NCBI RefSeq assembly: GCF_014203735.1
Contig: NZ_JACHJQ010000005.1
Location: 496,001-560,000, forward strand
Direction: 5' to 3'
Source: Actinophytocola algeriensis
GTDB lineage: Bacteria > Actinomycetota > Actinomycetes > Mycobacteriales > Pseudonocardiaceae
Length of the DNA: 64,000 bases
Both the position numbers and the translations under genes were made by a program. Shown in pieces: positions 14,035 to 36,604 of the stretch (position 1 is the first letter of the stretch; each line of letters begins with the position of its first letter). Below the pieces are notes generated by a model. That model had not been told where the DNA came from and ran no database searches. It was given only the letters and a program-made list of their open reading frames with translations.

Positions 14035-15236
14035 GCATGTCCACAGCAGGCCCGCCCGCCCGGCGCGGCGTCTTCGTCGCCGAGGTCGCCGTGCTGGTCG
14101 CCGCCTCGGTGCTGGACGCGGTGCTCGCACTGCGCACGGAACGGACCGGTGGGTTCGCCGGCCCCCTGCTCTCCGCCGTGCTGCCCTACCTGGGGACCGC
14201 GTTCGCCGTGCTGGCGGTGCTCCGACGCAGGCTGCCCGACCGGATCGGGCGGCTGGCGGCGGTTGTGGTCGGGTTGTCCCTGGTGGGCACCGCCGCGCGC
14301 GCGGCGGCGAACTGGGCCGGGCTGCCGCCGGGCGACCTGTCGGTGGTCACCGAGGTGCTTGCCGTCGTCGTGCTCGTGGGGGCGGGCTGTCGGCGGCTGC
14401 CGGTGGCGAACGCGGTCGTGCTGACCGCGGCGGGCGGTGCGGCGGTGGTGCTGGCACCCGTGGTGCGCTACGGGATCGGTTCGACCGCCGCCTTGCTGGC
14501 CGCACCGGCGGCACTGCTGTGGGGTGTGGCACTGGCGGTCGGTCTGGTGTTGCGCGACGCCGACACCCGCCACACCAGGGTGTTGCGCGAGGCCCGCATG
14601 CACGACCGGCTGCGGATGGCGCGCGAGCTGCACGACCTGGTCGCGCACTACCTCAGCGGGATCGTGGTGCGTGCCCAGGCAGCGCGCTCGCTGGCGGGAA
14701 ACCCCGCGGTGCCACCGCAGGACCCCGTCGAGGTCTACCGCGAGATCGAGGAGACCGGGGCCGAGGGCCTCGCCGCGATGCGCAAACTCGTCGGCATGTT
14801 GCGCGACGACGAGCACCAGATGCCGTTGCCCGGCACCGACCTGGGCGCGGTGGTCCGTTCCGTAGTGGACGGTCGCGGCGCGGTCCGCGTCGCCCTGCCC
14901 GGTGACCTCGACGACCTGCCGGTCTCCCCGGAGGTGGCCGCGGTGCTGCACCGCGTGCTCCTGGAGTCGCTGACCAACGTCCGCAGGCACGCCCGGCGGG
15001 CCACGGACGTGCGGGTCACGCTCCGGGTGGCCGGCGGGGACCTGGAACTGGACGTCGGCAACGACCTCCCCGAGGGAGCCGTCGCCGACGGGGAGCCGGG
15101 CTACGGCATCATCGGCATGACCGAGCGGGTGGCCGCCCTGGGCGGGACGCTGACGGCGGGACCGCGGGACGGTCGCTGGCACACCACGGCCCGGCTGCCC
15201 CTGGCACGGGTGAACGAACCGACGAGGGGAGTCTGA
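14031..15236 (+). CDS. NarL-family sensor histidine kinase
   Basis: A 401-residue membrane kinase. The N-terminal half has about six hydrophobic helices and no large extracellular loop, so it probably senses the membrane or an intramembrane signal. The HisKA_3 dimerisation domain carries the phospho-acceptor motif RMARELHDLVAHYLSGIVV, and the ATPase domain has the N-box ESLTNVRRHA and the G-box GYGIIGMTERV. The ATG at 14031 overlaps the preceding stop. The stop overlaps the start of the response regulator, so all three genes are translationally coupled. Confidence 0.9.
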   Translation: MSMSTAGPPARRGVFVAEVAVLVAASVLDAVLALRTERTGGFAGPLLSAVLPYLGTAFAVLAVLRRRLPDRIGRLAAVVVGLSLVGTAARAAANWAGLPPGDLSVVTEVLAVVVLVGAGCRRLPVANAVVLTAAGGAAVVLAPVVRYGIGSTAALLAAPAALLWGVALAVGLVLRDADTRHTRVLREARMHDRLRMARELHDLVAHYLSGIVVRAQAARSLAGNPAVPPQDPVEVYREIEETGAEGLAAMRKLVGMLRDDEHQMPLPGTDLGAVVRSVVDGRGAVRVALPGDLDDLPVSPEVAAVLHRVLLESLTNVRRHARRATDVRVTLRVAGGDLELDVGNDLPEGAVADGEPGYGIIGMTERVAALGGTLTAGPRDGRWHTTARLPLARVNEPTRGV

Positions 15237-25330: not shown

Positions 25331-27028
25331 GTGAGTTCTGTTGCCCGCACCGCCGCCCCTGTCGCCGCCGTGCCTTCTCCGCCACCACCGGGCGCTCTTC
25401 GGGTCGTCGCGCTGGGTGGTCTCGGGGAGATCGGCCGAAACATGACCGTGTTCGAGCACGACGGCAAGCTGTTGGTGGTGGACTGCGGGGTGCTGTTTCC
25501 CGAGGAGCACCAGCCCGGAGTGGACGTGATCCTGCCGGACTGGTCGGTGATCCGGGACCGGCTGTCCGATGTGGTGGCCGTGGTGCTGACCCACGGTCAC
25601 GAGGACCACATCGGCGGCGTGCCCTACCTGCTGCGCGAGCGTCCCGACATCCCGCTCATCGGCTCCCGTCTCACGCTGAGCTTCATCGGCGCCAAACTGG
25701 CCGAGCACCGCATCCAGCCGGTGACGATCGAGGTCCGCGAAGGCGGCCGGCTCACCAGGGGTCCGTTCGACCTGGAGTTCCTCGCTGTCAACCACTCCAT
25801 CCCGGACGGGCTCGCGGTCGCGATCCGCACCGGCGCCGGTCTGGTGCTGCACACCGGGGACTTCAAGATGGACCAGTTCCCGCTGGACGACCGGCTCACC
25901 GACCTGCGGGGTTTCGCCCGGCTCGGCGAGGAGGGCGTCGACCTGTTCCTCGTCGACTCCACCAACGCCGACGTGCCCGGCTTCACCACCGCGGAACGCG
26001 ACCTCACCCCCGCCATCGAGCAGGTGTTCCGCACCACGCCCGGACGGGTGATCGTCTCCAGCTTCGCCAGCCACGTGCACCGCATCCAGCAGGTCCTCGA
26101 CGCCGCCCACGCCAACGGCCGCAAGGTAGCCCTCGTCGGCCGCTCCATGCTCCGCAACATGGGCCTGGCCATCGACCTGGGCTACCTCACCGTTCCCGCC
26201 GGTCTCATCGTGGACCAGAACACCATCGAAGGGCTCCCCGCCCACCAGGTCGCCCTGGTGTGCACCGGATCCCAGGGCGAACCCATGGCGGTACTGGCCC
26301 GCATGGCCGCCGGCACCCACCCCATCAGCGTCGGCGAGGGCGACACCGTCCTGCTGGCCAGCTCGCTCATCCCCGGCAACGAGAACGCCATCTACCGCGT
26401 CATCAACGGGCTCACCGCACTGGGCGCGAACGTGGTGCACAAAGGCAACGCCAAGGTGCACGTCTCCGGGCACGCCAGCGCGGGCGAACTCGTCTACTGC
26501 TACAACATCGTGCAACCGTCCACAGTGCTGCCCGTCCACGGCGAACACCGCCACCTGCGGGCCAACGCCGAACTGGCCGTGCGGACCGGAGTGAAGCGAG
26601 ACCGGGTGCTCGTCGCCCGCAACGGAGACCTCATCGACCTCCACAACGGACGCGCCACGATCACCGGCACCGTCGAGGTCCACAACATCTATGTCGACGG
26701 CCAGACCGTCGGCAGCGCCACCGAAGCCACCCTCGCCCAACGACGCGCGCTCGGCACCGAAGGCGTCCTCACCGTCGTCGCGATCGTCGACCCCGACACC
26801 AGCAGGCTCACCGAGGAACCCGACATCATCGTCCGCGGCTTCGAACACGGCCCCGACGACTTCGGCCCCCTCACCTCCGCACTGGAGAAAGCCCTCACCA
26901 GAGCGGCCGAACGCGGCGCCACCACCCTGGACGACCTCGAGGACACCATCGCCCGCGAAACCGTGAAGTGGGTACGCAAAACCTTCGGCCGCCAACCCGT
27001 GGTCATCCCCGTCGTCATCGACGCCTGA
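25331..27028 (+). CDS. rnj: Ribonuclease J
   Basis: A 565-residue metallo-beta-lactamase/beta-CASP RNase, acting on mRNA turnover and rRNA maturation by 5'-3' exo- and endonucleolytic cleavage. The zinc motif LTHGHEDHIGG is near residue 83, HTGDFKMD and a later HVSGHASAGEL follow, and the C-terminal domain is complete. It begins at GTG 25331. A proline-rich stretch (PSPPPPG) near residue 15 precedes the catalytic domain. In most actinomycetes rnj lies beside dapA. Here it is flanked by accessory genes, so this may be a second copy or a relocated gene. Confidence 0.92.
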   Translation: MSSVARTAAPVAAVPSPPPPGALRVVALGGLGEIGRNMTVFEHDGKLLVVDCGVLFPEEHQPGVDVILPDWSVIRDRLSDVVAVVLTHGHEDHIGGVPYLLRERPDIPLIGSRLTLSFIGAKLAEHRIQPVTIEVREGGRLTRGPFDLEFLAVNHSIPDGLAVAIRTGAGLVLHTGDFKMDQFPLDDRLTDLRGFARLGEEGVDLFLVDSTNADVPGFTTAERDLTPAIEQVFRTTPGRVIVSSFASHVHRIQQVLDAAHANGRKVALVGRSMLRNMGLAIDLGYLTVPAGLIVDQNTIEGLPAHQVALVCTGSQGEPMAVLARMAAGTHPISVGEGDTVLLASSLIPGNENAIYRVINGLTALGANVVHKGNAKVHVSGHASAGELVYCYNIVQPSTVLPVHGEHRHLRANAELAVRTGVKRDRVLVARNGDLIDLHNGRATITGTVEVHNIYVDGQTVGSATEATLAQRRALGTEGVLTVVAIVDPDTSRLTEEPDIIVRGFEHGPDDFGPLTSALEKALTRAAERGATTLDDLEDTIARETVKWVRKTFGRQPVVIPVVIDA

Positions 27029-27294: not shown

Positions 27295-28809
27295 TCACCC
27301 AGCTGTCCAGTTCTGGATTGTCAGCCTGCTGCTGGTGAACGCGGCCAGGATGCGCTGGTGGGTCTGCCGCGGGAGTTGTCGGCCACCGGGTTCTCCGAAG
27401 GGGGTGCCGGGTCTTGCGGGTGCCTCACGGAGGAGGTCGGGTAGGCCGGGGCGGGTGAGCATGAGCAGGCCGTGGGTCGCGCGGGTGCAGGTCACGGCCA
27501 GTCTGCCGAACGAGGAGTTGAACTCGTCGAGTCGGGTGGCGCCGGACAGGGGGTGGATGGCTACCGTGATGCCGTTGGTCTGGCCCTGCCAAGAGTCCAC
27601 TGTGGACGCGACGATGTCCGTGGCGGCCAGGGAGTGCTTGGTGCGCAGGCGGTCGACCATGTCTGTCGCGTCGTCCACTGCCTGGTTGCGGGTGGCGAGG
27701 ACGGTGATCAGGGGGTCGCCGCCGTCGCCGGGGCGGGTGGTGAGTCGACGGCCGGTCGGGGTTCCCGTGGTGTCGTATTCCGCTCGGGTCAGGGCGAAGT
27801 CGGCGGCGAGCAGGGCATCCAGCAGTGCCTCGATCTGTCCCAGGAGTGGCTGGTCCACGTCGGCGGCTTCCGGGGTCGGCAGGCCCGCTATTTCCAGCAG
27901 TGTGGGCACTCCCGTTCCGACTGTGTGCCAGATGTCGGCCGCTGCGCCGGTCAGGCCGTCGGCGACCAGTGCGCGGTCGCCCGGGGCGGCGACGCAGTTG
28001 AGTTCCCGCCATTCCGGGTAGAACGCCCGCCAGAGGTGGAGGTGGCCGGCGGCGGGCCGCCACACGGCGGGCAGCTCGATGGCGACGGTGTGGTCGTCGT
28101 CGTCGAAGTCGGTGGGCCAGGCGCGGTACGGGTTGAAGCCGGGGTCGCCTCGCCACGGGTTCGCGCCGATCTCCAGGGGCGGCAGCTGGCCCACGTCCCC
28201 GACGCCCACGGTGATCGGGGCGGCCTTCGCGACCTTGTCGAACAGGTGGTGCGGTAGCTGCCACGCCTCGTCGACGAACAGCACGTCGAACACCGGCGGC
28301 GGTTCCTCAGGGAGGTCCCCGTCGGTGAAGTGCGCTGCCAGGCGGAAGAGTTCGCCCCGGGCGCCCAGCTTGTGGGACGTCGCGACGACCACCTTGCTCT
28401 CGACCGGGATGCCTGCCGTGCTGGTGACCACCGTGGCGTGCGCGTGGGTCTCCTCCGGCACGTCGTCGTAGCGTTTCTTGCTCGCGAACAGGCACACGCT
28501 GTCGCGGCCCAGTGCCTTCCCGAGCGCGGTCGCCAACGGGTAGACCTGCTTGTTGGTGAAGGCGATGATCGCCACGCGCGTGCAGCCGGGGTGCGCGACG
28601 GCCTCGGTGACGAGCTTCTTCAGCACGTGGGACTTCCCGGCGCCCGCGGCCGCCTTCAGCAGGATGCGCTCCACGGCCACCGTGCCCGCCAGCGCCGCGC
28701 GCAGCACGTCGACCGCCTCGTCGGCCACGGCCGTGTTCCCCGCGGCCGCGCCCGCGTGGTGGACCGCCTCCATACTCGCCCCGGGGGGCGGGGTGAATGC
28801 GAGGGTCAC
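27295..28809 (-). CDS. SF1-like AAA helicase/ATPase, partner of the upstream nuclease
   Basis: A 504-residue P-loop ATPase of the UvrD/DUF2075-like superfamily 1 type. Walker A is AAAGAGKSHV (about 53-62), Walker B VLFVDEAWQLP (about 176-186), motif III VGVGDVGQLPP (about 201-211), and a C-terminal VTCTRATHGLLML corresponds to motif VI with its Arg. STVDSWQGQT is the motif V-like glutamine segment. It starts at GTG 28809, four bases after the nuclease stop, with GGAG seven bases upstream. Its likely role is a DNA or RNA translocase driving the nuclease. No substrate can be read from the sequence. Confidence 0.82.
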   Translation of the reverse strand: MTLAFTPPPGASMEAVHHAGAAAGNTAVADEAVDVLRAALAGTVAVERILLKAAAGAGKSHVLKKLVTEAVAHPGCTRVAIIAFTNKQVYPLATALGKALGRDSVCLFASKKRYDDVPEETHAHATVVTSTAGIPVESKVVVATSHKLGARGELFRLAAHFTDGDLPEEPPPVFDVLFVDEAWQLPHHLFDKVAKAAPITVGVGDVGQLPPLEIGANPWRGDPGFNPYRAWPTDFDDDDHTVAIELPAVWRPAAGHLHLWRAFYPEWRELNCVAAPGDRALVADGLTGAAADIWHTVGTGVPTLLEIAGLPTPEAADVDQPLLGQIEALLDALLAADFALTRAEYDTTGTPTGRRLTTRPGDGGDPLITVLATRNQAVDDATDMVDRLRTKHSLAATDIVASTVDSWQGQTNGITVAIHPLSGATRLDEFNSSFGRLAVTCTRATHGLLMLTRPGLPDLLREAPARPGTPFGEPGGRQLPRQTHQRILAAFTSSRLTIQNWTAG

Positions 28810-28813
28810 GGCG

Positions 28814-31507
28814 TCACTCCAGGTCGTCCAGGGTCAGGTCGTCCGGTGCCTCGGTGTGCGCCACCGCCACCAGTTCGGCGACGAGCGCACCCGCCGGGGT
28901 CACCTCGAACGCGTCCTCGTCGAACACCGGCGGCCACGCCTGCGGGTTCAGCTCCCCGTTGTCGCGGCGCTCGGCGAGCCGGTCGGCCCAGTCCGCCTCC
29001 GCGTTCTCGTGGGGGCGGCAGCAGTACTGGTGCTCGTCGGGGGAGTCGTCGTACGAGTACGGCCCGCAGTCCTGTTTCGGCGCGGACGTGTCGTCCGCCG
29101 CCGGTCTCGCGACGCTGAGCGCCTTGTTGCCCTTGAGGTCGCAGTACCAGCTGAAGTCCGCGACGACGAGCCGGTCGCCGGGCGCCACGTCCGGCGTGGT
29201 GTCCGGGGTCCACGCGAACCGGCGCGGCTCCTCTCCCACCGCCGCCAGCGGGCCGATCGCCATGCCTGCGAACTTGACGCTGCCCTTCAACGGGGTCATG
29301 GCCGTCCCCGGCCGTTCCACGCAGGCCTCGCCGTTGACGTGCAGCAGCACGATCCGCACGCCCGCGCCGATCCGCCGCGACTCGACGTCCAGCACGAGCG
29401 GTGCCGTGCTGACCACGGTCGCGGGCACGACCTCCCGGACCCCGGCGTCGGCGGCCATGTCCGCCGCGGCCTGCGGGTTGCCCAGCGCGGCGAGCTGGTG
29501 GCGGCATCGGCCGTCGCTCTCGATGACCGGCACGAGCGAGTTGCGCCAGTGCCGGTAGGTGCGGCCGAACCGGACCAGGTCGGAGGCGTGCAGGTCCAGC
29601 CTGCGCCGCCACACCGCCTGGGCGTCCGCCTCGATCGCGTGGTGGACGTCGCGGAGGGCGGAGTCACGCACGGCCCGCAACGCGGCGAGGGCCCGGTCGA
29701 GCACGTCGCACTTGTACGCGAGCTCCTCGGTGACGAGCGCGGTGTACCGCTGCGGGTTGGGTTCCCCGCCGCGCCCGCCGGTCAGTGCGCGGTGCACGGC
29801 GTCCGAGCGCCTGCCCGTCAGCCGGGCACCCGGTGTGTGCTGGGAGCGTTCGACGTCGTCCTCGAGTTCGCGCGGTTTGACCGGGCCCCGGGTGAGCGTC
29901 TCCGCCCACGCCACCAGGTAGTCGAGGCGCAGCGACGACGACGCGGGTCCGCCGGCCACCACGTGCTGCGCGAGGACCGCGCGCAGGTCGAGGACGGGGG
30001 AGCGAAGCGACAGGGCGCGGGCGCGGTCGTCCTCGAGGAGGAACGACACCGCGGTCCGCTCGGCCGTGTGCAGCGCGGCGGGCACGCGCGCGGGTTCGCC
30101 GCCGAACGTCAGCGGCTCGCGGCCCACCGCGCGGTCCCGTTCCCAGCGCAGCCTGCTGAGCTCGACCCCGGCGAGGTTGTCGGCGATGGAGGCGAGGACG
30201 TCCGCCGTCACGGCGTCGGGCACCACGACGTGCACCGCGTATGCGCCGTGGCGGGCGTTCTCGGCCATCGCGGCGGTGATCTCGTGACCGAGCAGCCGCA
30301 TCACCCGGCGCCGGGTCTCGACCGACTGCGGCTCGTCGAACACGGTGACGGACCAGTCCCCGGGACCCGCGTCGGTGTGGCGCCGCAGCGCGATCCCGTG
30401 CACACCGAGCGCGGCGGCGTCCGCCTTGGCGAGCACCACGTCGACGGTGCCGGGGCGGCCCGCGCCGTCGACCCGCAACTGCCCGGTCCGCCTGCCGACC
30501 CCGTCCAGCGTTGCGCGCACCTGCGCGACCACCGACGCAGGTGCGCGCGCGGCCGCCTCGCCACCGGTCACCAGACAGGCGACCTGGGCACGCAGCTCAG
30601 GCGGGACACCGATCTCCACCAGCAGGTCGGCCGGGTCGGGCGAGGTCCGCACCTCGTAGCGGCAGTAGGAGAACAGGGGACAGGTGGTGCAGGTGGCCGG
30701 GTCGTACGTGGCCCGCAGGTGCGCGACGAACGGCGCGACGTCGGTGCCCGGCAGATACCGCGACTCCGCCGCCTCGCGCCGGCGTTCGGCCACCCGCATC
30801 CGTACCTCGGCGCGGTGGTCGTGCAGTGCCTCGACGAGCGCCTCGGGCTGCAGGAACGAGTTCCTCGGCACCGCCAGCACACCGTGGGAGTGCACGGCCA
30901 TGCCCCGCGGCAGCCGCGACCACTCCGCCGCCGACTCCGCGCCGAGCGCCACCTGGAGGAAACCCTTGAGCAGCCGGGCGTCGTCGATCCGCGAGCGCAC
31001 CCGCTCGTAGTCCTTGGCGTCGCCGACGATCAGCCACGACTCGCCGGCCGCTCCTGCGGCGACCACCGCGAAGTCCGGCTTGACCTCGGTGGCCGCGCCG
31101 TCCTCGAACCCGGCGAACGGCACCGCGAGACCGTGTACCAGGGTGGCGGCGCCTTCGGCGACGGCACGGTCGTGCGCGGCGGCCAGCAGGCCGGCGGTCT
31201 CGTCGGCGTGCACGTGGGCGTTGACGGTCACGACCTTCGTCGGCCGCTCCAGCCCGACCCGTCCGACCGTGGTGGTCGCGACCTCGCCCGCGAACTGGGC
31301 GTCGCGCACCAGGTGCTCGAACGTCATGGCCCGCGTCCACCGGGCCGCGGGAATGTAGCCGGAGTCGTCGGGGAACCCGAGTTCCAGTGCCAGCTGCCTG
31401 CGCGTCCGGCCGACGACGAGCGGATCCGTGCCTCGGAACCGCGCGCATGCCGCGTGCGTCGACGCCGCGACCGCGCCGGAACCGCCGCCAAGTGACTTGC
31501 CCGGCAT
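28814..31507 (-). CDS. RecB-like PD-(D/E)XK nuclease with Fe-S cysteine signature, large
   Basis: An 897-residue protein. The N-terminal 290 residues form a RecB/AddB/Cas4-like nuclease: Cys21, E141, the PD of EVKPDFAVV (144-145), GDAKDYE with D163 and K165, then C273-x2-C276-x5-C282. That cysteine layout (one distant N-terminal Cys plus CX2CX5C) is the 4Fe-4S signature of AddB and Cas4 nucleases. The remaining 600 residues have no domain I recognise. The C-terminal 250 look beta-rich, with a cysteine/histidine cluster (CGPYSYDD and QYCCRPHE). It is the first gene of a two-gene operon with an SF1-like helicase. TM0106-type proteins fuse similar parts in one chain. Phage or plasmid defence is a hypothesis. 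Confidence 0.72.
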   Translation of the reverse strand: MPGKSLGGGSGAVAASTHAACARFRGTDPLVVGRTRRQLALELGFPDDSGYIPAARWTRAMTFEHLVRDAQFAGEVATTTVGRVGLERPTKVVTVNAHVHADETAGLLAAAHDRAVAEGAATLVHGLAVPFAGFEDGAATEVKPDFAVVAAGAAGESWLIVGDAKDYERVRSRIDDARLLKGFLQVALGAESAAEWSRLPRGMAVHSHGVLAVPRNSFLQPEALVEALHDHRAEVRMRVAERRREAAESRYLPGTDVAPFVAHLRATYDPATCTTCPLFSYCRYEVRTSPDPADLLVEIGVPPELRAQVACLVTGGEAAARAPASVVAQVRATLDGVGRRTGQLRVDGAGRPGTVDVVLAKADAAALGVHGIALRRHTDAGPGDWSVTVFDEPQSVETRRRVMRLLGHEITAAMAENARHGAYAVHVVVPDAVTADVLASIADNLAGVELSRLRWERDRAVGREPLTFGGEPARVPAALHTAERTAVSFLLEDDRARALSLRSPVLDLRAVLAQHVVAGGPASSSLRLDYLVAWAETLTRGPVKPRELEDDVERSQHTPGARLTGRRSDAVHRALTGGRGGEPNPQRYTALVTEELAYKCDVLDRALAALRAVRDSALRDVHHAIEADAQAVWRRRLDLHASDLVRFGRTYRHWRNSLVPVIESDGRCRHQLAALGNPQAAADMAADAGVREVVPATVVSTAPLVLDVESRRIGAGVRIVLLHVNGEACVERPGTAMTPLKGSVKFAGMAIGPLAAVGEEPRRFAWTPDTTPDVAPGDRLVVADFSWYCDLKGNKALSVARPAADDTSAPKQDCGPYSYDDSPDEHQYCCRPHENAEADWADRLAERRDNGELNPQAWPPVFDEDAFEVTPAGALVAELVAVAHTEAPDDLTLDDLE

Positions 31508-33787: not shown

Positions 33788-34224
33788 CAACCCCCGACAA
33801 GAACCCAGGAACCGGCTCGCCAACCCCGTTGCCTGACGGGGAAGGCGGGCCAGTTTCGCGAAGCGAACACTCGCTCGTCGGCAGAAGAGTGCGTTCTTGA
33901 GAGTTGAGGTTTCTGCCGAGCAGGTGCCGGGAGCGGCACCGACGTCGGCAATGGGAGGGGGAGGACTGCCACCGCCGGCCAGATCGACCCTGGTAGCTGC
34001 GGCCAGGGAATCGCGACGCCGTCGAGTCGGCCAGTGGGTCGAACACGCGCACATGTTCAACCCTCCGATCTGCCCGTGTGGTTCGACCTCGCGATGGCGC
34101 GTCAGCGCACGTCAGATCATGCCAACGAGGTGGTCGGCAAGTAGTACCGCGGTACCGCCTCTCTCCCGCGGATGACTACCGCAGTACGACGAAACAGGAC
34201 GGAATCAGGCCTAGCGTTAAGGCT
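33788..34224. other. Gene-free interval before the copper monooxygenase gene
   Basis: No protein-like frame. Close to the next start the sequence CCTAGCGTTAAGGCT precedes ATG 34225, and TAGCGT could act as a -10 for a leaderless or near-leaderless message. Nothing else recognised. Confidence 0.35.
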
Positions 34225-35433
34225 ATGACGAAACCTGACAGTCCACTGTGGAGGTTCGGGGTGGCCACCATGGCGCTGGCGACGGCGTTCGCTGTCGTCG
34301 CCGCCTGCGGGTCGGACGCCGGCAACAGCGCGGCGCCCGCCGCGACCGGATCGCACGGCGCGCACGCGGGCGGGTCGTCGGCTCCACCGCAGCCGCTGCG
34401 TGCCGGCGAGCGGTTCGTCGACCTGAAGATGGTCGAGGCATACACGCCCGCGCCGCCGGAGGGCGGCACGGACGAGTACCGGTGCCAGATGATCGATCCG
34501 GGCCTGACCAAGGCGGCGTTCCTGACCGGGACCGAGTTCACGCCGGAGAACGTCGCCATCGCCCACCACGCCATCGTGTACGCGGTGCCGCCGGGCGGCG
34601 CTGCCGCCGTGCGCGAGCAGGACGCGGAGACCCCCGGCCTCGGCTGGCAGTGTTTCGGCGGGACCGGCGTGGCCGGCGCCGAGGTGGAAGAGGGGGACGC
34701 GGCGTGGGTGGACACCTGGGCGCCGGGCGCCACGGAGACGCTGCTCGACCAGGACGCCGGCTACAAGCTGGAGCCGGGCAGCCTGCTCGTCCTCCAGCTC
34801 CACTACAACCTGCTCGCGACCGACGGCAAGCCGGCCGGGTCGGACCGCTCGGCGGTGCGGCTGCGGCTGACGGACGGCACGCCGCAGACCCGGGAACTCG
34901 AGACGTGGTCGCTCGACGCGCCGACCGACCTGCCCTGCGCCGCCGACGAGTCGGGTCCGCTCTGTGACCGGGCGGCCTCGATCGCGGACGTGACGAAGCG
35001 GTTCGGGCCAGATGTCGGCGAGATGGCGGACCGTCAGGTGGAGGAGTGCAACCAGGGCGGCGCGCCGAAGCCTGGTGACACCCAGACCTGCGACCACAAG
35101 GTGGAGGCGCCGATGACGCTGTTCGCCGGTTTCGGCCACATGCACATGCTCGGGCGGGCCATCAAGGTCGAACTCAACCCGGGCACGCCGAAGGCCAGGG
35201 TCGTGCTGGACGTGCCGCAGTTCGACTTCGACAACCAGCGGCTGGTGAAGCTGCCGGCGCCGGTGGAGATCGGTCCGGGGGACACGCTGCGGGTGACGTG
35301 TACGCACGACGCGGGGCTGCGCAAACGGCTGCCGCAGCTGAGCAAGCTGCCGCCCCGCTACGTGGTGTGGGGCGACGGCACCAGCGACGAGATGTGCATT
35401 GGCATCATGACGGTTTCCCCCCGCGAGCCCTGA
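34225..35433 (+). CDS. Lipoprotein copper type II monooxygenase (PHM/DBH-like)
   Basis: A 402-residue lipoprotein (lipobox VVAACGSD, Cys near residue 28) related to copper type II ascorbate-dependent monooxygenases. Two jelly-roll domains carry the copper ligands: IAHHAIVYAV in the first, LQLHYNLL between, and FGHMHMLGRAI in the second, followed by DEMCIGIMTV. It would hydroxylate an unknown substrate outside the membrane. A 3' duplicate of the gene follows immediately, and a DoxX-Rieske fusion gene lies downstream and could supply electrons. The ATG at 34225 has no ribosome-binding site. Confidence 0.8.
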   Translation: MTKPDSPLWRFGVATMALATAFAVVAACGSDAGNSAAPAATGSHGAHAGGSSAPPQPLRAGERFVDLKMVEAYTPAPPEGGTDEYRCQMIDPGLTKAAFLTGTEFTPENVAIAHHAIVYAVPPGGAAAVREQDAETPGLGWQCFGGTGVAGAEVEEGDAAWVDTWAPGATETLLDQDAGYKLEPGSLLVLQLHYNLLATDGKPAGSDRSAVRLRLTDGTPQTRELETWSLDAPTDLPCAADESGPLCDRAASIADVTKRFGPDVGEMADRQVEECNQGGAPKPGDTQTCDHKVEAPMTLFAGFGHMHMLGRAIKVELNPGTPKARVVLDVPQFDFDNQRLVKLPAPVEIGPGDTLRVTCTHDAGLRKRLPQLSKLPPRYVVWGDGTSDEMCIGIMTVSPREP

Positions 35434-35467
35434 CGAAGGGGTCGAACGTGTGTGAATTCACTGAGGT
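35401..35467 (+). repeat. Direct repeat, copy 1 (about 67 bp)
   Basis: GGCATCATGACGGTTTC, a C-rich patch, CCTGACGAAGGGGTCGAA and CGTGTGTGAATTCACTGAGG occur in the same order as at 37036-37104 with a few substitutions and indels. This copy covers the last codons of the copper monooxygenase gene and the start of its duplicated fragment. Confidence 0.65.
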
Positions 35468-35654
35468 ATCGCAGCTGTCCACTCCTGTCGACTTCAAGCG
35501 GGGAGACACGCTGCGGGTCACCTGTACCCATGACGCCACCCCTGCGGCAGAAGCTGCCGTATTGAGCAAGTTCCCACCGCGCTATGTGGTCTGGGGCGAC
35601 GGTTCCAGCGACGAGATGTGTGCAGGCCAGATGATGGCCTCGGCCACGACATGA
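35449..35654 (+). pseudogene. Duplicated 3' fragment of the copper monooxygenase gene
   Basis: In frame to a stop at 35654 it encodes RGDTLRVTCTHDA, then LSKFPPRYVVWGDGSSDEMC and AGQMMAS. These are nearly the same as the end of the preceding gene (GDTLRVTCTHDAG, LSKLPPRYVVWGDGTSDEMC, IGIMTVS). The segment between differs by compensating small changes. No start or signal exists, so it is a partial tandem duplication. Its stop overlaps the ATG of the next gene. Confidence 0.75.
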
Positions 35655-36604
35655 CCCGGTTGCGTTTGGATTCCCCGAGGCGGTCGCCGGTCTGGGTACT
35701 GCTGCCGCTGCGTGCTTTTCTCGGTGGCACCTTCTCCTACGCCGGTCTCTCCAAGCTCCTCGACACGCACTACTTGGACGACACCTCGCCACTCGGTGTC
35801 CACGCGCAGATGGTGAACGCCGCCCCGACCTCCCCGATCGGCCCGCTGGTCTCGCTGGCCGCCGACCACGCGACCGTCGCCGGGCTGGCGATCGCTTTCG
35901 GGGAGATCGCGGTCGGGCTCGCCACCCTGCTCGGGCTGTTCACCCGGCTCGCCGCACTCGGCGGTGTCCTCCTCTCACTCAGCTTCTTCCTGACGGTGAG
36001 CTGGACGACTCGGCCGTACTACGTCGGGGCCGACATCCTGTTCGCCGTCGCCTGGACCCCGTTGCTGATCGCGGGCGACGCCGGGGTGTTGTCACTGAGT
36101 GCCCGGCTGCGTGCGAAGGTGCGGCACAGGCTCGGCCTGCCGGTGCACCCCACGCCGGAGGAAGGCGGGACAGTACAGGACGACGTCGAGCGGCGTACCG
36201 TGCTGCGGGGCGGTCTGGTCGCGGCGGCGGCGACCGCTGCCGGAGTCACCGCGGGCAGCGCGCTGGCGCTCGCCCGGCGCCCTGCTGGCTCGCCAGCGGA
36301 CTCGGTAAGCCACGGTCCGGTGATCGCTGCCGTCGACGACATCGTCGTCGGCTCGTCGAAGAGCTTCACCATGCCGAAGGGGACGCCCGCCTATCTCCTG
36401 CGCCCGGCGCCGGACACCTTCCTGGCGTTCAACGCCACCTGCCGTCATCAGGGCTGCCCGGTCTCCTACGTCGGCCCTGGCTTCCGGTGCCCTTGCCACG
36501 GCGCCACCTACGACGAGAACGGACAGGTGACCGGAGGGCCGGCACCCGCACCGCTGATCAAAATCCCGGTCAAGGTCGTTGCGGGCCAGGTCATGCTTGC
36601 CTGA
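35651..36604 (+). CDS. DoxX-type membrane domain fused to a Rieske 2Fe-2S domain
   Basis: A 317-residue fusion. Residues 10-155 are a four-helix DoxX/DoxD (TQO-like) membrane domain (RAFLGGTFSYAGLSKLLD, GLAIAFGEIAVGLATLLGLF). Residues 185-215 hold a twin-arginine-like segment (ERRTVLRGGLVAAAATAAG), and residues 230-317 a Rieske domain with CRHQGCPV and CPCHGATYD binding the 2Fe-2S cluster. DoxD proteins take part in quinone-linked oxidations. It may pass electrons between quinones and an extracellular partner, such as the neighbouring copper monooxygenase (inference). The ATG overlaps the stop of the duplicated fragment and has no ribosome-binding site. Confidence 0.82.
   Translation: MTRLRLDSPRRSPVWVLLPLRAFLGGTFSYAGLSKLLDTHYLDDTSPLGVHAQMVNAAPTSPIGPLVSLAADHATVAGLAIAFGEIAVGLATLLGLFTRLAALGGVLLSLSFFLTVSWTTRPYYVGADILFAVAWTPLLIAGDAGVLSLSARLRAKVRHRLGLPVHPTPEEGGTVQDDVERRTVLRGGLVAAAATAAGVTAGSALALARRPAGSPADSVSHGPVIAAVDDIVVGSSKSFTMPKGTPAYLLRPAPDTFLAFNATCRHQGCPVSYVGPGFRCPCHGATYDENGQVTGGPAPAPLIKIPVKVVAGQVMLA

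Follow-up and report, generated by a model that had tools for sequence, protein, structure and literature searches.

The window, i.e. the 64,000 nucleotides of the Actinophytocola algeriensis genome analysed here, carries two adjacent genes that raise the question of whether a nuclease and a helicase encoded side by side act as one machine, and on what DNA. The original prediction, made from the sequence alone, described an 897-residue protein followed four bases on by a P-loop ATPase with SF1-like motifs, and our ORF calls agree with this pair (c0 and c1; Table 1).

Table 1. Positions in the window of the two genes and of the features within them
Feature	Position	Strand	Evidence
c0, Fe-S nuclease protein, 897 aa	28814-31507	(-)	ORF, ATG start; 54 homologues aligned; AlphaFold
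c1, SF1B (Upf1/Dna2-like) helicase, 504 aa	27295-28809	(-)	ORF, GTG start; Pfam; Foldseek
Intergenic gap c0/c1, 4 bases	28810-28813	(-)	
c0 residues 1-300, RecB/Cas4-type nuclease domain	30608-31507	(-)	Conservation and Foldseek
c0 residues 301-897, stretch without recognised domain	28817-30607	(-)	Pfam, NCBIfam and PADLOC blank
c0 residues 814-833, Cys/His cluster, putative second metal site	29009-29068	(-)	Conservation
c1 Walker A, residues 53-60	28630-28653	(-)	Alignment of 45 rows
c1 DEAW box, residues 180-183	28261-28272	(-)	Alignment of 45 rows

The GC content at third codon positions is 0.94 in c0 and 0.90 in c1, i.e. of the coding type. Because relatives of c0 are 49-86% identical to it across its whole length, a chance ORF is ruled out; the closest relative found, at 86% identity, is from Actinophytocola oryzae. 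The window's genome of 9.7 Mb contains one copy each of c0 and c1, and in other loci the two genes frequently overlap by 4 bases.

P144, D145, D163, K165, C21, C273, C276 and C282 of c0 lie at the residue positions given by the original prediction, which had tied its reading to the conservation of the four cysteines, D163 and K165. In the alignment of c0 homologues, the cysteines and K165 are present in 54/54 sequences, as anticipated, and D163 is present in 50/54 and is thus not universal. D145 is present in 53/54, and P144 and Q185 in 50/54 each; the conservation of Q185, like that of K181, is biased, because the patterns of the genome scan spanned c0 residues 178-186 and about 442-450. The c0 set A3, from the 54 rows, leaves out L014, L015, L034, L044, L071 and L074. 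We also observed a second group of conserved Cys and His residues, which had gone unmentioned in the original prediction: C814 is present in 53/54 homologues, and H826, C829, C830 and H833 in 52/54 each, the exceptions being L071 and L074, the two rows with a disrupted frame. As judged from this conservation, residues 814-833 are a possible second metal site.

Pfam gave nothing convincing for c0 (best E 0.87), and PADLOC-DB 2.0.0 gave no profile match at E up to 1. A likeness to TM0106-type proteins had been suggested; the NCBIfam library, which presumably holds a TM0106-type model, assigned c0 to no family, E values up to 1 being considered, and this likeness is therefore unsupported by profiles. 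The same three libraries are blank for residues 301-897, in agreement with the about 600 residues originally described as free of recognisable domains. The AlphaFold2 model of c0 has a mean pLDDT of 88.5, and residues 301-897 are modelled with good confidence along most of their length. In Foldseek, the type I-C Cas4 structure 8d3l (E 0.022) and MGME1 (E 0.033) ranked at the top as matches to the N-terminus with a probability of 0.99, and no PDB match to c0 reached E 0.001. Altogether, the model weakly points to a Cas4/MGME1-like nuclease of the RecB family, which would carry an Fe-S cluster at the iron-staple cysteines. In a viral structure library, two uncharacterised giant-virus proteins of Yasminevirus and Faunusvirus (892 and 846 residues) match the c0 model nearly over its full length (774 and 720 columns; E 1.7e-6 and 1.4e-4; TM 0.30-0.36), suggesting that the overall build of c0 may occur outside bacteria.

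For c1, Pfam detected AAA_19 (E 2.5e-7) and a UvrD match below the Pfam cut-off (E 6.8e-4), and PADLOC-DB 2.0.0 gave weak P-loop matches only (best E 0.0025). The SF1-like helicase of the original prediction is borne out by the predicted fold: the AlphaFold2 model (mean pLDDT 86) matched Ighmbp2 (E 1.2e-15), Dna2 (5eaw; E 1.9e-15) and Upf1 (E 3.0e-14) best in Foldseek, i.e. the SF1B group. G56-K59, DEAW and GDVGQLPP are invariant in the 45 aligned rows and S60 is nearly so; the c1 set A4 holds these 45 of 51 rows and leaves out L014, L015, L029, L064, L067 and L071. On the basis of its modelled fold, c1 is probably an SF1B helicase of the Upf1/Dna2 kind.

A search of the order detected c0 in 12/298 genomes at E 0.001; we accepted 10/298, and one genus group accounts for seven of these. 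The hit in G273 (E 2.2e-4) was rejected as false, since with E values up to 10 allowed the c0 profile did not detect the ORF, which looks like an NTPase/LuxR-type regulator; similarly, G234 was set aside from the 10/298 as it belongs to a distant four-gene family. The pair was found in 2/396 genomes in the search of the phylum, in 2/6 Actinophytocola genomes, and in two plasmid records, both from Rhodococcus, one of them pDF02, and each with a four-gene operon. The phage search gave no c0 match, and the pattern-limited scan of viral contigs confirmed no copy. A pattern-limited scan of genome contigs yielded 53 loci, each titled as actinobacterial, which together with the window and the two plasmids make up the 56 loci examined; the pairs L018/L034, L019/L046, L020/L032, L021/L041, L022/L068, L023/L066 and L024/L074 are from the same genomes and were counted once.

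The original prediction depended on the two genes occurring together. c1, or a remnant of it, follows c0 in 55/55 loci in which the contig runs past c0; L061 ends inside c0 and was excluded. These include L077, in which the contig has just the first 63 residues of c1, and L080, a deletion remnant with parts of both genes; c1 in L030 and L043, and the Mod gene in L054, were located by tblastn. The genes flanking the pair differ between the two Actinophytocola genomes that have it. Between these genomes, dS is 0.35 for c0 and 0.53 for c1, close to the 0.35 of RNase J, and thus vertical inheritance fits as well as mobility.

The original prediction had proposed a survey of homologue neighbourhoods. 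In this survey, which counts the 56 loci minus L061 and L080, an ATP-dependent restriction system is encoded next to the pair in 33/54 loci; these restriction genes, present beside the pair in most relatives, had not been part of the original prediction. For each cluster of neighbours, representatives were scanned with Pfam and PADLOC, and the remaining proteins were placed in the cluster by BLAST similarity. A type III system of one lineage (lineage a) is present in 19/54 loci, which are 17 complete loci, L079, in which the contig ends just inside Mod, and L048, in which a deletion scar (14250-14631) joins the first 76 codons of Mod to the last 56 codons of Res and is followed by a GmrSD-like gene. 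The order c0-c1-Mod-Res is found in 17/17 complete loci, Mod and Res overlap by 4 bases in the 16 loci called by ORF, and the lineage-a representative matched MTase_III of PADLOC (E 3.4e-255) and ResIII of Pfam (E 2.1e-10). A type ISP enzyme adjoins the pair in 12/54 loci, divergently in 10, and a type III system of a second lineage (lineage b) in 2/54. The remaining 21/54 loci, including the window, have none of the three restriction kinds in the stretch examined. A UvrD-PDDEXK protein, c5, is encoded near the pair in 12/56 loci (nine lineage a, two lineage b and one type ISP); the 21 solo loci are all without it. Other neighbours are GmrSD-like proteins in six loci and Schlafen-helicase-like proteins in five, one member of each having been checked by Pfam.

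On the c0 tree, which leaves out L044, L071 and L074, the four partner labels require 11 changes (minimum 3, shuffled mean 24.4), as counted with the labels predating the reassignment of L048 and L079; thus, partners have been gained and lost repeatedly. The solo copies largely cluster together on this tree. We also considered whether lone pairs are served by an unlinked partner and found that in general they are not: among the 22 genomes with an apparently unlinked pair, which include L048 and L079, later recognised as linked, type ISP is present in 2/22, and a lineage-a Mod was detected at E 0.001 in 3/22, namely one full-length gene (1/22), the scar in L048 and one partial match. Because type ISP is this rare in genomes with unlinked pairs, its position as the next gene in 12/54 loci is not due to chance.

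The window copy is itself solo. We scanned 10 ORFs of the window, from 20.4 to 40.5 kb, and none is a known defence gene; this neighbourhood is not a defence island. A reading of the window copy as part of a type III or type ISP system was rejected, as the methyltransferase and the SF2 helicase were not found nearby. Moreover, the window's genome gave no type ISP C-terminal domain (PF18135) and no lineage-a type III Mod (PDLC03645), implying that the DNA ends come from elsewhere or that the pair acts alone. Among its neighbours, positions 25331-27028(+) encode an additional RNase J, which shares 59% identity with the other copy in the same genome; the other five Actinophytocola genomes searched have one full-length RNase J each. 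At 34078-36604(+), a gene for a copper type II monooxygenase-like protein is followed by one for a DoxD/DoxX-Rieske fusion protein.

Departures from the nuclease motif of c0 are all in Actinopolyspora. D163 is replaced by A in L032, L034 and L046, by V in L041, and by G in L017, which is from the same genus group; in L074, D145 is absent and the reading frame is broken. Thus, catalytic residues are lost and the cysteines kept in six copies, with an unbroken frame in five of the six; the motif is intact in a further Actinopolyspora copy, L030. Between Actinopolyspora copies, dN/dS is 0.28-0.37 for c0 and 0.31-0.43 for residues 1-300, for which two intact pairs gave 0.15-0.16; in the four copies with catalytic losses on which it was measured, it is well below 1. 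From these ratios, selection on the Actinopolyspora c0 looks relaxed, not neutral. As these copies seem to be selected despite the loss of the catalytic Asp, cutting is probably not the whole function of c0.

Helicase-nucleases beside type III systems are already known from two published descriptions. The closest characterised relative of the pair, as compared by its published description, is Bad of Geobacillus stearothermophilus, an ssDNA endonuclease that translocates and unwinds 5'-3' and prefers 5' overhangs or flaps (PMC7430649). In Geobacilli, bad adjoins a type III methyltransferase gene, as the pair does in 19/54 loci, and its authors proposed that Bad contributes to a novel type of restriction enzyme (PMC7430649). 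According to that description, Bad and the pair both begin with an Fe-S iron-staple nuclease and end with an SF1B helicase, and in both a long central stretch with no assigned function lies in between. The features in common with Dna2 and Bad that we found are the four iron-staple cysteines spanning the nuclease (54/54), the RecB motif residues (50-54/54) and the SF1B helicase. However, Bad is one chain, and nuclease and helicase are encoded separately in all 55 loci that could be assessed here; for this reason we state that the pair would work like Bad and do not class it as Bad. The pair also differs in that some copies are solo and others lie beside type ISP enzymes or type III systems of lineage b. 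The description mentions a second class in Mycobacteria and Rhodococcus (PMC7430649), which may include the pair studied here. Eukaryotic Dna2 resembles the pair in its helicase fold (5eaw) and in a RecB-type Fe-S nuclease ahead of the helicase; however, it is fused and, in eukaryotes, essential, and it is described as devoid of the 600-residue central region (PMC7430649).

A described UvrD-Cas4 fusion beside type III Mod/Res (PMC5704561) similarly ties an Fe-S-type nuclease and an SF1 helicase to type III systems, but it is one chain with a UvrD-type (SF1A) helicase and a PDDEXK_1 profile match; c5, encoded near the pair in 12/56 loci, is a protein of this type. The pair was rejected as a form of this fusion since c0 has no PDDEXK_1 match and the UvrD match of c1 is below the Pfam cut-off. 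UPF1-like helicases are also described in other restriction systems, the CoCoNuTs (PMC11090510). The main text of DefensePredictor (PMC13092281) has no match for the terms searched, and searches of the open-access literature gave no account of a two-gene form or of linkage to type ISP. A match to the 'PLuB' helicase is weak (E 0.0094), with nothing relevant on 'PLuB' among the literature matches listed. As in the original prediction, no named anti-phage system could be assigned to the pair with PADLOC-DB 2.0.0, NCBIfam or Pfam profiles.

The distant four-gene family (L026, L115-L132) encodes a protein of about 281 aa, a Cas4-like nuclease, a protein of about 490 aa and a Upf1-like helicase; it is commoner than the pair (42/298 genomes of the order) and lies beside SbcCD in 7/19 loci and Wadjet-type genes in 2/19. 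In one HMM-HMM comparison each, its helicase is homologous to c1 (99.8%, E 1.2e-29) and its nuclease to the c0 N-terminus (81%, E 1.2e-5); unlike in c0, the nuclease is encoded apart from the middle part, which has no homology to c0 (0.9%). On the mycobacterial plasmids L133 (4577-7134) and L134 (4604-7131), a protein of roughly 400 aa without a match to c0 precedes a Upf1-like helicase that the c1 profile identifies as a relative of c1 (E 6.8e-23 and 3.8e-20, respectively).

The split RecB/Dna2-like machine of the original prediction is thus supported by the folds, by the co-occurrence of the two genes and by the linkage to restriction systems, and its candidate role in defence is one that we infer. 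Our preferred reading, in which we have about even confidence, is that the pair is a two-chain Dna2-like (Bad-like) helicase-nuclease that provides a transferable second step in the restriction of foreign DNA. By analogy, c1 would be a 5'-to-3' SF1B motor and the N-terminus of c0 an iron-sulphur nuclease of the RecB/Cas4 type, and the remaining about 600 residues of c0 would probably bind the motor and/or DNA. The two proteins would form a complex that engages DNA at free ends or flaps and there unwinds and cuts it; this would usually be foreign DNA, often broken beforehand by an adjacent translocating or sliding type III or type ISP enzyme. More tentatively, the pair could be an exchangeable end-processing effector for two type III lineages and type ISP that turns single cuts into full degradation of the invader, with distant four-gene kin beside SbcCD and Wadjet, and with a nuclease site that is dead in one genus, the rest being kept, pointing to a role as motor or sensor.

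The idea raised for Bad by Wilkinson et al. (PMC7430649) would make the pair a subunit of a restriction enzyme, i.e. of a holoenzyme with a methyltransferase and an SF2 helicase in which cutting is the task of c0-c1. Such an enzyme is favoured by the constant gene order of 17 loci, by the Mod/Res overlap in 16 of them and by the absence of the usual Lys of the PD-(D/E)XK motif from the Res partners, which have DPHG (16/17) or DPHR (1/17) in lineage a (L014:21308-23905 and 16 relatives) and EVSG (2/2; L062, L066) in lineage b. However, Res relatives without the pair equally lack this Lys (7/7 fetched for lineage a and 3/4 for lineage b); the Lys-less motif is therefore no evidence of a handover to the pair, and we rejected the notion that the Res nuclease was lost because the pair replaces it. 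Moreover, the type ISP partners retain their own nuclease motif in 12/12 loci, and 21/54 loci have no partner; we consider a subunit role unlikely. A downstream role at ends made by restriction is preferred because the partners are exchangeable and the type ISP enzymes would have a nuclease of their own.

We are similarly doubtful that the pair is a host machine for DNA repair or end resection, found near restriction genes because it repairs self-inflicted breaks or because both share mobile regions. Dna2 is described as a repair enzyme in eukaryotes (PMC7430649), solo copies sit among ordinary genes, the four-gene family lies beside SbcCD in 7/19 loci, and within Actinophytocola the pair has a dS like that of RNase J; however, the pair is linked to three different restriction types, is also on plasmids, and has a distribution (10/298, 2/396, 2/6) that is too sparse for core repair. 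That the pair is a self-sufficient defence system that merely co-clusters with restriction systems in defence islands would account for the solo copies, which largely group together on the tree, and for the GmrSD-like (6) or Schlafen-helicase-like (5) neighbours in some loci; this we regard as improbable, as loose clustering would explain neither why the gene order is constant in 17 loci nor why a type ISP gene is the direct neighbour in 12. Two observations are not well explained by the preferred reading of a role downstream of restriction, namely the solo copies and the nuclease-dead copies of Actinopolyspora.

RecBCD or AddAB is generally held responsible for what becomes of phage DNA once a restriction enzyme has cut it. 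If the preferred reading is true, type III and type ISP enzymes would be accompanied by a Dna2-like machine dedicated to a second stage of restriction. To the clue provided by Bad, as far as it has been described, our analysis adds a two-gene form, a spread over many actinobacterial genera, and linkage to two type III lineages as well as to type ISP; the loci described here, including the two Rhodococcus plasmid operons, open the proposal that Bad takes part in restriction to testing.
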